Assembly (NCBI RefSeq): GCF_014876775.1 | Contig: NZ_CP062310.1 | Span: forward strand, 248,001-312,000 | DNA length: 64,000 nucleotides | Origin: Infirmifilum lucidum | GTDB lineage: Archaea > Thermoproteota > Thermoprotei > Thermofilales > Thermofilaceae | Reading direction: 5' to 3' | In this document: positions 21,678 through 46,851 of the stretch, in pieces | How positions within the stretch are numbered: the first letter of the stretch is position 1 | Layout of the letters: the number at the start of each line of letters is the position of its first letter | Program-made: the position numbers and the translations under genes | Notes under the pieces: model-generated | Seen by the model: only the letters and a program-made list of their open reading frames with translations | Databases searched by the model: none | What the model was told of the DNA's origin: nothing

Positions 21678-22136
21678 ATGCCCACCCTAGCCACTCTCAC
21701 TTTCATAGTCCACGACGGGAAAGTGCTCCTAATCAGGAAGAAGAGCGGCTTCGGCGCGGGCAAGGTGAACGGCATCGGAGGAAAGGTGGAGCCCGGCGAA
21801 ACTCCAGAGGATGCGGCGGGGCGCGAAGTACTCGAGGAGGTTGGTCTCAGTATTATGAGTACCGATAGCGCCGGCTTGCTCTACTTCTACTCCTCGGGCA
21901 GCGAACCCGACTGGGTAGTGTACGTGTTCCGGGCCTACTCGTTCGAGGGGAGGCCTCTGAGCACTGTGGAGGCGGATCCGGTCTGGGTGCCTCTCAAGTC
22001 CATACCCTTCGATGAAATGTGGGAGGACGACAGGCACTGGCTCCCCCACGTCCTTGCAGGCTACACCGTGGAGGGCCACTTCTACTTCGATGAAAACTAC
22101 TCAAAACTGCTAAGGTTTAGATTGAAAATAGGGTAG
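21678..22136 (+). CDS. Nudix hydrolase, MTH1/8-oxo-dGTPase-like
   Basis: A 152-residue Nudix pyrophosphohydrolase. The box GGKVEPGETPEDAAGREVLEEVGL (about 33-56, G-x5-E-x7-R-E-x2-E-E-x-G) is intact. The C-terminal PFDEMWEDDRHWLPHVL closely follows the MTH1/NUDT1 pattern that recognises oxidised purine dNTPs. Sanitising the nucleotide pool is thus likely but not certain, as Nudix specificity is hard to read. ATAAGGG at about 21651 serves as a possible TATA element. It is divergent from pyrF. Confidence 0.88.
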   Translation: MPTLATLTFIVHDGKVLLIRKKSGFGAGKVNGIGGKVEPGETPEDAAGREVLEEVGLSIMSTDSAGLLYFYSSGSEPDWVVYVFRAYSFEGRPLSTVEADPVWVPLKSIPFDEMWEDDRHWLPHVLAGYTVEGHFYFDENYSKLLRFRLKIG

Positions 22137-22291
22137 GAAAGAGTGTTTTTAGAAGTAGTAGAGACCTGCTACCCCGAAGACCACGGCTTGGAGTTATGCT
22201 TGGTGGTTTATGATCCAGTTTTTAGGCCTTGAGCGGTCTCTCCAGCTATACTTTTATTTCATGGTTAGCGTCTTGAGAGCTGGGGAGCGTA
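22137..22291. other. intergenic: C-terminal membrane-protein fragment and promoter
   Basis: On the minus strand, 22155-22187 reads LQAVVFGVAGLYYF and a stop, without an upstream open frame. It resembles the end of the NrfD-like gene at 22828 (IQAGVFEVVGL and stop) in 8 of 11 positions, so it may be a leftover copy. On the plus strand TATACTTTTATTT (about 22247-22259) could be the TATA box for the retropepsin-like gene at 22292. Confidence 0.3.
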
Positions 22292-22699
22292 GTGGGATAT
22301 GTTAGGGTGAAGGTTCTAGTAGGTTCTCCCGATAGGACTAGAGTTGAAGAGGTAGTATTTCTAGCTGACACAGGGGCATACTATACTGTATTACCTTCAG
22401 AGCTAGCTGAGAGTTTAAGTATAAAACCAATGGCAAGGGCTGAACTCTTGTTAGCAGACAAGCGGGTGGTGGAGGCTCAGCTGTCCTATGCGTACATAAA
22501 GGTGGGTGAGAGGGAGGGTGTACTGCCGGTAGCCATAATGGATGTCCCTGAGCCAGTACTTGGTGTGACGGCTATGGAGGGGTTGGGGATAAAAGTCGAC
22601 CCCGTTACAGGAAGGGTAGAGTACACAAGACCATATGGCTTGGCCATGTTTATAACTGAAAACACTTTGTTCGGCTCTAGGAACCTTCATTGCTCTTAG
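22292..22699 (+). CDS. single-domain retropepsin-like aspartic protease
   Basis: A 135-residue protein starting at GTG. The one catalytic motif FLADTGAYYTVLPSELA (Asp about 26) and the C-terminal ILGV-type strand VLGVTAMEGLGIKVDPVTGRVE mark the clan AA retropepsin-like fold, which is active only as a homodimer. There is no signal peptide, so a cytoplasmic role is expected. The gene is more A+T-rich and uses more TTA/ATA codons than its neighbours, a sign of transfer. No RHH or DUF5678 partner precedes it, unlike the gene at 45876. Confidence 0.75.
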   Translation: MGYVRVKVLVGSPDRTRVEEVVFLADTGAYYTVLPSELAESLSIKPMARAELLLADKRVVEAQLSYAYIKVGEREGVLPVAIMDVPEPVLGVTAMEGLGIKVDPVTGRVEYTRPYGLAMFITENTLFGSRNLHCS

Positions 22700-44539: not shown

Positions 44540-44869
44540 CTAGATTTCCTTTAGATCTTTTATGAAGCGCTTATAGAGTTCAAACCTACTATTATCCACT
44601 ACATGGAACTCGAACGGGTCGTCAAATCCAGCTTTCCTCAGATTCGCTATTACGAAACTAGGATCAAGAGAGGTTAAAATTAGGATGTCAATATCGCTAG
44701 CTAAAGTATTTTCTCCTCTTGATGTTGAACCAAACAGGAATAACTTCCCATTACTATCTAGCCTTTTCATAGCGTCTTTGAGTCTATTCAGGTAGCTTCG
44801 AAGGTTCCTAAATACTTCTTCTCTCCTTTTTGCTTCTTCAACTAGAATATCTTCTAACAAACTCCTCAA
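44540..44869 (-). CDS. minimal nucleotidyltransferase (MNT) protein
   Basis: A 109-residue MNT-type protein. LFLFGSTSRGENTLASDIDILIL holds the G-S-x10-D-x-D catalytic motif (Gly47, Ser48, Asp59, Asp61). The N-terminal helix (VEEAKRREEVFRNLRSYLNRLKDAMKRL) is typical of MNT antitoxins. It overlaps the decayed HEPN gene upstream by about 30 bases, the usual partner arrangement. The MNT part looks intact although its HEPN partner is broken. Its present function is uncertain. Confidence 0.75.
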   Translation of the reverse strand: MRSLLEDILVEEAKRREEVFRNLRSYLNRLKDAMKRLDSNGKLFLFGSTSRGENTLASDIDILILTSLDPSFVIANLRKAGFDDPFEFHVVDNSRFELYKRFIKDLKEI

Positions 44870-45228
44870 CCTCCTCTGAGAGCCTTTTTAACTTCTCTAC
44901 CTCTTCTTTAGTGAAGTCTCTAGCGAAATATCTAGAAGTAATGTACGCACCTCTAAACCCGCAAACTCCAGTGCTTTTTCTCCGCGAAACTCTCGAATTC
45001 TTCTTCTCTCCCCAGAACTCTACCAAGCAGCAGGAAAATTTTCCTCAATGTAATGAATCTTAGGAAAATCGACCCCTCTCGAGTAGCTTAGCCCTTAGGA
45101 AAAGCTGTAGGGACTGCTCAATGTTAAATACTGCTAGATCATAGTCACCACGAGAAAAGTGAAAATCCGCTGCATCTTTAAACTTCCTCTACATTTCAAG
45201 CAATTTTTTCCAGCTCTTCTTTCTTCAT
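44838..45228 (-). pseudogene. decayed HEPN-domain gene
   Basis: Reading from ATG 45228, pieces of one HEPN protein occur in shifting frames: MKKEELEKIA (then stop), FKDAADFHFSRGDYDLAVFN and IEQSLQLFLRAKLLERGRF, then a break, and finally FRGAYITSRYFARDFTKEEV plus EKLKRLSEEVEEFVRRY. These are the first, second and last helices of a COG1895 HEPN protein. At least three frame disruptions and two stops separate them. It is the lost partner of the MNT gene downstream. Confidence 0.65.
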
Positions 45229-45445: not shown

Positions 45446-45457
45446 CTTGTATACAAG
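45446..45457. promoter_or_regulatory. perfect 12-base palindrome before the RHH gene
   Basis: CTTGTATACAAG, a perfect dyad, lies 4 bases upstream of the TATA-like CTTTTTATC (45462-45470) and about 48 bases before the ATG at 45505. Ribbon-helix-helix antitoxin-type proteins bind such short palindromes at their own promoters, so autoregulation by the downstream protein is the simplest reading (inference). Confidence 0.6.
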
Positions 45458-45504
45458 AAATCTTTTTATCTTAGTTTTCATTGTTTTCATTCTAAGGTAA
45501 TGCG

Positions 45505-45897
45505 ATGAGCACGGTAACGATCAGGGGGGTAGACGAAAAGACCTATAGGAAAATAAAGGCCATTGCAGCGCTTAGAGGAGTGAAGGTAGGTGACATTGTT
45601 AACGAGGCGCTGAAGCTCTGGCTTTCGATAAGGCCGGAGGTGTTGGAGGCATTTTCAACTATTGATGAAGAAGCTGACAGGAATAGGAAAGCCTATGAGA
45701 GTCTTAGATCGGAACTGGAGAAGTATAAAGGTAAATACGTAGCTATCGCCCACGGTAGCTTGCTAGGAGTCTACGACTCGATAAAGGAAGCCGCGGAAGC
45801 CGTAGAAAGAGCAAATGCGAGACATGGGATAGTGAAGAAGATAGTGGAAGAAGCCCCAGAGAAGGTAGAGCTGGGATGGAGTCTGGTAGAACTGTAA
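45505..45897 (+). CDS. RHH-DUF5678 protein (antitoxin-like)
   Basis: A 130-residue protein. Residues 1-43 form a ribbon-helix-helix DNA-binding domain (STVTIRGVDEKTYRKIKAIA, then VGDIVNEALKLWL). Residues about 65-112 match the small DUF5678 domain (LEKYKGKYVAIAHGSLLGVY, then DSIKEAAEAVERAN). The end extends into the next gene by 22 bases, so translation is coupled to the retropepsin-like partner. A perfect palindrome precedes the TATA box. This layout is like a toxin-antitoxin operon, but the partner is a protease-like protein and not a known toxin. Confidence 0.72.
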   Translation: MSTVTIRGVDEKTYRKIKAIAALRGVKVGDIVNEALKLWLSIRPEVLEAFSTIDEEADRNRKAYESLRSELEKYKGKYVAIAHGSLLGVYDSIKEAAEAVERANARHGIVKKIVEEAPEKVELGWSLVEL

Positions 45898-46280
45898 GGG
45901 GGTGGTATTCAGACAGAGAGAGGCCTCCCGTACCTTGCATTAGACTAAAAGTCTACACACCGTCTGAGAGGTATCTCGCTGAGATAGACGCGAATGTCGA
46001 TACCGGGTTTTCTGGGTCTCTACTAATTTCCCCTGACCTATACATTAAACTGGGCCTGGCTCTTTATGAGGAACCAGAAGTAGTCCGGGGTTCAGTGGCT
46101 GGAGGGTATTTCATAGACCTTAGAGTCTCGAATGGTATTGTTGAGCTAAATGGCCTAAGAACTGCCTGCAAGATCTACACAGCGCTGCTTGCCAAGAAGA
46201 ACCTAGTTGGAAGGGCTCTACTAAACAGGTTTAGGCTGGTTTTAGACGGGAAGAGCGGGGTTGTTGAGGTGGAATTATAG
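45876..46280 (+). CDS. single-domain retropepsin-like protease, partner of RHH-DUF5678
   Basis: A 134-residue protein with one aspartic protease motif, IDANVDTGFSGSLLISPDL (Asp42), and the fold-closing NLVGRALLNRFRLVLDGKSG. Clan AA single-domain proteins act as dimers. There is no signal peptide. The ATG lies within the end of the RHH gene and is the only usable start. The C-terminal L-V-G-R-x-L-L-N-R replaces the I-L-G-V strand of the related gene at 22292. A role in cleaving or regulating its RHH partner is a guess from the arrangement. Confidence 0.72.
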   Translation: MESGRTVRGWYSDRERPPVPCIRLKVYTPSERYLAEIDANVDTGFSGSLLISPDLYIKLGLALYEEPEVVRGSVAGGYFIDLRVSNGIVELNGLRTACKIYTALLAKKNLVGRALLNRFRLVLDGKSGVVEVEL

Positions 46281-46349: not shown

Positions 46350-46704
46350 TCAGAGTAGCCAGAGTTCTGCAGGTTTTAACCTACCAGATACCGGGTTTAC
46401 CTCTAGGCCTAGTAGCTCTAGTGTTGTTACCCCTAGGAGTGGGGGACGTTTTCCGGGCCTACGACTACGAGGCTTGTAGCCCTACGGCCTTCGATTTCTA
46501 TCCTCGCCTCAGCTACGGGGTACTCGATGATTTCTCCACTAGCGGTCTTAAACCTCCTGGTATCAGTGTATTTGAGGCCTAATTTCTCGGCTAAATCCCC
46601 AGGGATTATAGATAGGTGGCGCCGGAGTCGACGATAGACTCCACGTCCACCCCGAGGTTCCCGCTGAAGTTCGAGGCAAAGCCTCTCACTTTAACAAGTC
46701 CCAT
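46350..46704 (-). pseudogene. retropepsin-like gene with two frameshifts
   Basis: From ATG 46704: MGLVKVRGFASNFSGNLGV and ESIVDSGATYL, then a one-base loss creates TAA. The next frame gives IIPGDLAEKLGLKYTDTRRF and on to VVVGPENVP. A second one-base loss follows, and the last frame ends LLGVTTLELLGLEVNPVSGR and LKPAELWLL. Together they make a full-length single-domain protein with intact D-S-G-A. It is convergent with the intact retropepsin gene at 45876 but belongs to a different subgroup, closer to the one at 11808. Confidence 0.75.
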
Positions 46705-46851
46705 CGAATGTAGTTAGTTGGGAGCCGTATAAATTCTTTAACAGGGTACAGGGTTGACCAGTACGTCGCTACAGGCGATAACTGTTATCCCGGAAAGCTC
46801 TTTGGATGGCTTTTTATCTGCGTAGTAGCCTCCAGTATAGGAGGGTTGGGG
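46705..46851. promoter_or_regulatory. spacer with pyrC promoter
   Basis: TTTTTATC at about 46811-46818 lies roughly 35 bases before the GTG at 46852 and is the likely TATA box for pyrCD. AGGAGGG at 46839-46845 is a strong ribosome-binding site 6 bases before that GTG. On the other strand a TTTATAC stretch (46719-46726) could have served the dead retropepsin gene. Confidence 0.45.

Follow-up and report, generated by a model that had tools for sequence, protein, structure and literature searches.

Background

Two groups of small operons come closest to the gene pair described here. Xre/COG2856, a predicted zinc protease with a helix-turn-helix (HTH) partner, is placed among toxin-antitoxin-like systems in PMC2701414, and there and in PMC10538038 the protease is held most likely to cut its repressor. 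Systems of this kind (ImmR-ImmA, DdrO-IrrE) resemble the pair in the window (the whole 64,000-nt stretch of DNA that was analysed) in that a small DNA-binding protein and a single-domain protease are encoded in one operon. They differ in their components, an HEXXH zinc protease with an Xre HTH protein as against an aspartic D-T-G retropepsin with a ribbon-helix-helix (RHH)-DUF5678 protein, and the DUF5678-retropepsin family also includes partners without a DNA-binding domain, the partner domain being portable. Xre/COG2856 (ImmR/ImmA), the closest known protease pair, shows that cleavage of a repressor has to be considered alongside a classical toxin-antitoxin function.

The second group consists of type II toxin-antitoxin modules whose antitoxins are RHH proteins (FitA, VapB, ParD, TacA, AtaR), with which the window pair shares a probable RHH fold, the antitoxin-first gene order, the gene overlap, a promoter dyad and an interchangeable DNA-binding domain. 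The layout of the window pair is that of such a module, with small overlapping genes, the first of them in the antitoxin position, and a candidate operator. To our knowledge, no toxin class of type II RHH modules is a retropepsin. No description of a DUF5678-retropepsin pairing was found in the open-licence literature searched, and the words aspartyl, aspartic and retropepsin are absent from the main text of PMC2701414 and from PMC4012209.

The retropepsin fold and the D-T-G motif of the window protease are also those of TIGR03698 clan AA aspartic proteases (DTGF type), Rickettsia APRc (5c9f), Ddi1 and HIV-1 protease, but the window protease has a dedicated partner gene, whereas most of the archaeal relatives listed are without one. 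A further label, PEPT_D (PADLOC PDLC01133), is attached to proteases of Sulfolobales type III CRISPR operons, whereas the window pair lies outside any CRISPR operon; the label is silent on a DUF5678 partner.

The overlapping gene pair

The first gene of the pair (45505-45897, + strand) is an open reading frame for a protein of 130 aa with a match to PF18929 (DUF5678) and a structure model of mean pLDDT 85.3. The model begins with a probable RHH domain (residues 1-43, 45505-45633, helices at 11-24 and 28-41), which continues into a long linker helix (residues 44-74, 45634-45726) and a DUF5678 domain of beta-beta-alpha-beta order (45727-45840), with strands at residues 78-82 and 85-90, a helix at 93-102 and a strand at 108-112. 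The C-terminal tail (residues 113-130, 45841-45894) is modelled with low confidence in the protein alone, pLDDT falling below 50 at residues 125-130, and its end is conserved, reading GWSLVEL in close relatives and EWWGGSIEL in another branch. Conservation of the tail as a mere by-product of the gene overlap was rejected, as locus L051 keeps the tail with an overlap of only 4 nt. The named relatives of the partner protein belong to Thermofilum and other Thermoprotei.

By profile score DUF5678 is a borderline match. It was found at residues 70-102 (E 1.1e-4), with 22.4 bits in a protein search and 23.3 bits in a genome search against a gathering cut-off of 23.2, and relatives reach up to 60.8 bits. 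In sequence searches the RHH domain of the window protein does not reach the Pfam cut-offs (PF22513, E 0.0014), and that of a relative (L062) exceeds the PF01402 cut-off, with 26.3 against 20.5 bits. Residues 1-42 of the model align with the RHH repressors and antitoxins CopG, Arc, TacA, AtaR, ParD and FitA, the best Z score of 6.3 being middling. A Foldseek search with the RHH-DUF5678 model gave no match below E 0.001, a repeat comparison matched mainly residues 1-51, and Sso1393 (3qyf) was not among the structure matches listed for this model.

The second gene (45876-46280, + strand) encodes a single-domain retropepsin-like aspartic protease of 134 aa and, by the coordinates of the two open reading frames, overlaps the first by 22 nt (45876-45897). 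The protein matches the TIGR03698 clan AA aspartic protease profile (E 6.4e-15), and since its 55.4 bits lie just below the curated cut-off of 57.35 it is filed as a clan AA retropepsin rather than as a certified TIGR03698 member. Its model (pLDDT 91.0, pTM 0.83) has the single-lobe retropepsin fold, with Rickettsia retropepsin APRc (5c9f) as the best PDB match (E 2.4e-6, probability 1.00), followed by Ddi1 and retroviral proteases. The catalytic D42-T43-G44 (45999-46007, + strand) is intact and is invariant in 33/33 intact paired proteases, as is G112 of the second conserved retropepsin motif, L-V-G-R (46203-46214, + strand). The preliminary description of the locus had named an RHH-DUF5678 gene, a 22-base overlap with a D-T-G protease gene, and a perfect dyad beside a TATA box, and all three are borne out.

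Retropepsins are unusually numerous in the window genome, with 12 TIGR03698 matches per 1.63 Mb. Solitary retropepsins of the DSGA/DTGA type exist, and the paired ones differ from them; the reading of the window protease as a lone retropepsin next to an unrelated gene was rejected for this reason. Two other retropepsins were seen in the window. One (46353-46713, - strand) adjoins the intact pair and is a decayed solitary copy broken over three frames, with fragments at E 1.5e-15, 2.8e-10 and 7.2e-6. The other (PF13650, E 4.7e-8) follows a NUDIX gene, the two together spanning 21678-22699 (+ strand), and in a congener (L190) a NUDIX gene that looks alike by eye stands before pyrC, again with a retropepsin behind it.

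Promoter and candidate operator

A perfect 12-bp dyad, CTTGTATACAAG (45446-45457), lies just 5' of a TATA-box-like sequence, CTTTTTATC (45462-45470, + strand), which, as read by eye, would be the promoter element about 39 nt 5' of the start codon. The dyad occurs as a single exact copy within the 64,000-nt window and is a candidate operator for self-repression, which the RHH domain may contact. Taken alone, a dyad with 6-bp arms in 150 nt is unremarkable, as two runs of shuffling the same upstream sequence produced one in 10% and 24% of cases, and no general excess of promoter dyads was present across 44 upstreams (mean shuffle P 0.45). The half-sites CTTGTNNACAAG, however, recur in the promoter of L173, the closest relative; they were found in 2 of 43 upstreams, the window itself being one of the two, against a mean of 0.005 and a maximum of 1 in 200 shuffle runs. 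Over the whole genome ACTTGTNNACAAG has four sites, and the window site is the only one upstream of a gene, the other three lying within or at the end of open reading frames or between convergent ones. In another branch a different motif, ACCTAGGT, picked post hoc, is present in 7 of 43 upstreams, with 8 sites against 0.185 expected. For the counts over 43 and 44 upstreams, duplicate rows had been removed on the basis of the last 60 residues.

Overlapping genes for a DNA-binding protein and a protease, in one operon behind a promoter dyad, would also suit a protease that cleaves its repressor, as in ImmA/ImmR and IrrE/DdrO. The RHH protein would then repress the window operon, and perhaps others too, and the retropepsin would cut it on a signal, so that the genes are turned on and no poison is involved. 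Xre/COG2856 follows the same logic, and the flexible, conserved tail of the partner could be the cleavage site. Against this, a single copy of the dyad in promoter position was found in the genome. Repressor cleavage is a serious rival to a toxin-antitoxin-like function, if on the whole a somewhat improbable one.

Pairing across genomes

In searches of 250 Thermoproteota genomes, the TIGR03698 profile was positive in 104/250 and the PF18929 profile in 37/250. For 30 of these 37 genomes the best DUF5678 match was taken and the 800 nt downstream of it were scanned for a retropepsin, which was present on the same strand in 22/30, against 0/30 in an upstream control and 1/30 on the opposite strand. 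When 300 Thermoproteota genomes were searched with a profile built on the RHH-DUF5678 form (A1), 41 rows reached E <= 7.1e-15, and 37 of these are followed immediately, on the same strand, by a retropepsin (upstream control 1/41, opposite strand 2/41). Twelve of the 41 rows were seeds of A1, some of which had themselves been found via the retropepsin, and with the seeds excluded the protease was downstream of 25/29 matches. The RHH-DUF5678 genes with no adjoining protease (L146, L157, L151, L149) come from three genomes. Profile A4 was run on the complete set of 27 genomes from the window's order and picked up 27 rows, in 15 of the genomes; several of these rows were already in A4, and several of the latter had entered it by RHH-DUF5678 similarity alone. 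A retropepsin stands beside 25 of the 27 rows, that of L132 being a remnant and those of L205 and L214 truncated. The two rows that lack it stop 1 and 12 nt short of the end of a contig. In most relative pairs partner and protease genes overlap, by 4 to 53 nt. Rows alike in their last 60 residues were counted once in this comparison of loci.

A count of DUF5678 and retropepsin co-occurrence had been proposed in the preliminary description, with the want of a conserved neighbourhood as grounds for abandoning the module; the neighbourhood is conserved (37/41, 22/30 and 25/27). The pairing goes far beyond chance. That the two are chance neighbours, or unrelated small genes in a plain operon, could draw on the abundance of retropepsins in such genomes, of which the 12 matches in the window genome are an example, but this explanation is refuted because the same order and strand are kept in 37/41 and 22/30 cases, where the controls gave 0 to 2, and it retains next to no probability.

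No natural fusion of DUF5678 to a retropepsin was found among the open reading frames of the loci examined. Three loci are arranged differently. In L043 (345-1689, - strand) the DUF5678 gene is followed by a ThiF-rhodanese gene in place of the retropepsin; in L057 (1471-2662, - strand) it adjoins a PIN/DUF3368 gene and a small antitoxin-resembling gene, and a retropepsin was not found; and in L037 (953-1677) the DUF5678 and retropepsin genes are convergent, tail to tail and 2 nt apart.

DUF5678 as the constant part

Antitoxins exchange DNA-binding domains and keep the toxin-binding part. A comparable exchange is seen in front of DUF5678, which in L170 follows a VapB-type PF02697 domain (32.1 bits against a cut-off of 27.9 for PF02697, 32.1 against 23.2 for DUF5678) and in L061 and L165 a MarR/AbiEi-like domain, in each case with a retropepsin behind. 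In many loci the retropepsin is preceded by a protein of 57-107 residues that carries DUF5678 alone, with no DNA-binding domain. The conserved core consists of DUF5678 and the retropepsin; the N-terminal part is interchangeable and takes several forms, of which the RHH domain is one. The candidate two-gene module proposed earlier stands as a recurring unit, in which a promoter dyad and a gene for a DNA-binding protein are followed by a coupled second gene, but the RHH domain does not belong to the core. Repressor cleavage, too, is limited by these loci; it cannot be the shared function, because many DUF5678 partners that lack any DNA-binding domain still keep the protease.

DUF5678 also follows the retropepsin more closely than the RHH domain does. 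In 33 pairs the distance matrices of partner and protease were correlated with a Spearman coefficient of 0.70 (permutation maximum 0.31), the coefficient being 0.69 for DUF5678 and 0.58 for RHH, and the partial correlation 0.52 for DUF5678 given RHH and 0.27 for RHH given DUF5678; co-inheritance contributes to all of these values. Together with the conserved tail, DUF5678 probably forms the part of the partner that contacts the protease.

CRISPR-linked relatives

Tails resembling DUF5678 were also seen on proteins of CRISPR-associated types. In L006 and L010 a Cas_APE2256 CARF protein with an SSO1393-like winged helix precedes and overlaps a retropepsin gene and ends in a DUF5678-like tail of about 50 residues; the L010 protein matches the solved 324-residue structure 3qyf over its full length, tail included. 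The latter is Sso1393, a ring nuclease that degrades cA4, and the parts of PMC10018336 that describe it make no mention of a protease partner. In L002 a type III-G Cas7 with a similar tail overlaps a downstream retropepsin, with Cas10g, Csm4/Cas5 and Csx26 nearby. Compared by profile with DUF5678, the tails gave probabilities of 34% and 51% (E 4.2e-4 and 1.5e-4, each for a single comparison), the second value being that against the RHH-DUF5678 profile, so that the homology is weak and suggestive only. At another locus (L064, the same as L185 6706-7418, - strand), a 132-residue protein made up of three DUF5678-like tails overlaps a retropepsin gene by 4 nt. The PADLOC PEPT_D model, an aspartyl protease of a 'type III operon', matches the L002 protease at E 2.3e-55, the window protease at E 1.4e-6 and 22/33 aligned RHH-paired proteases at E <= 0.001.

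These relatives bear on a second serious rival, in which DUF5678 would act as an adaptor that docks the retropepsin onto varied sensors (of DNA, cyclic oligoadenylate or target RNA) and the protease would cut host or viral proteins in a regulated manner. The tails on the CARF ring-nuclease-type proteins and on Cas7, each overlapping a retropepsin gene, and the PEPT_D matches of RHH-paired proteases speak for it, as does the E value of 1.5e-4. The probabilities of 34 and 51% that accompany the tail comparisons tell against it, and an adaptor alone predicts no overlapping, self-repressing layout. As an account of the window pair it is considered unlikely.

Genomic setting, distribution and decay

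The window pair is flanked by an HpcH/HpaI aldolase gene, a remnant of an MNT/HEPN pair and a gene for a dihydroorotase-like amidohydrolase. The remnant (44540-45063, - strand) comprises a nucleotidyltransferase open reading frame (PF01909, E 2.9e-11) beside a HEPN fragment with stops upstream, and looks like a decayed MNT/HEPN toxin-antitoxin pair. In 7 other family members inspected the DUF5678-retropepsin pair is missing from the same spot beside pyrC, where other genes are found, and it therefore behaves as variable cargo; within the window's order 12 of 27 genomes are without it. Searches of plasmids, phages and viral contigs gave no usable match, one plasmid row being at chance level. 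An origin from a plasmid or virus was rejected on this ground, and the indication of mobility accordingly comes from the patchy distribution.

In five loci (L132, L133, L145, L152, L154) the partner can be read through, and the protease gene next to it is broken or reduced to a remnant; the broken proteases were read as separate six-frame pieces, and assembly errors are possible in draft genomes. Decay in the reverse direction, in which the protease is readable and the partner broken, was seen in L013 and L016 and probably in L144, where the partner has two stops and the protease signal is kept. Because five loci stand against three, the toxin-like asymmetry of decay is weak; the pattern slightly favours a costly protease, short of proving toxicity.

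Proposed function and significance

The best-supported working model, which is given an even chance of being correct, is a toxin-antitoxin-like two-gene protease module in which the partner holds the protease and the layout is self-repressing. The preliminary description had suggested that the protease may act on its RHH partner or on a cell target kept in check. In the present model the first protein would dimerise through its RHH domain and repress its own operon by binding the dyad next to the TATA box, and DUF5678 and the conserved C-terminal tail would bind the retropepsin and keep it inactive or tethered. The retropepsin would be active only as a dimer. On loss or triggering of the partner the protease would be freed and may then cut one or more cell proteins, with slower growth or a switched response as the outcome.

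A wider reading is put forward tentatively. DUF5678 may be a portable domain that docks and silences retropepsins on varied archaeal sensors (DNA-binding repressors, CARF ring nucleases that bind cyclic oligoadenylate, type III-G Cas7), giving a family of aspartic-protease effectors in stress and virus defence, and the RHH form would be its toxin-antitoxin-like version. The pairing provides a first functional handle on DUF5678 and on prokaryotic retropepsins. If the protease is indeed held by DUF5678, the window pair would be an aspartic-protease member of the world of repressor/protease and toxin-antitoxin systems, and the CARF and Cas7 versions would link retropepsins to type III CRISPR signalling through DUF5678.
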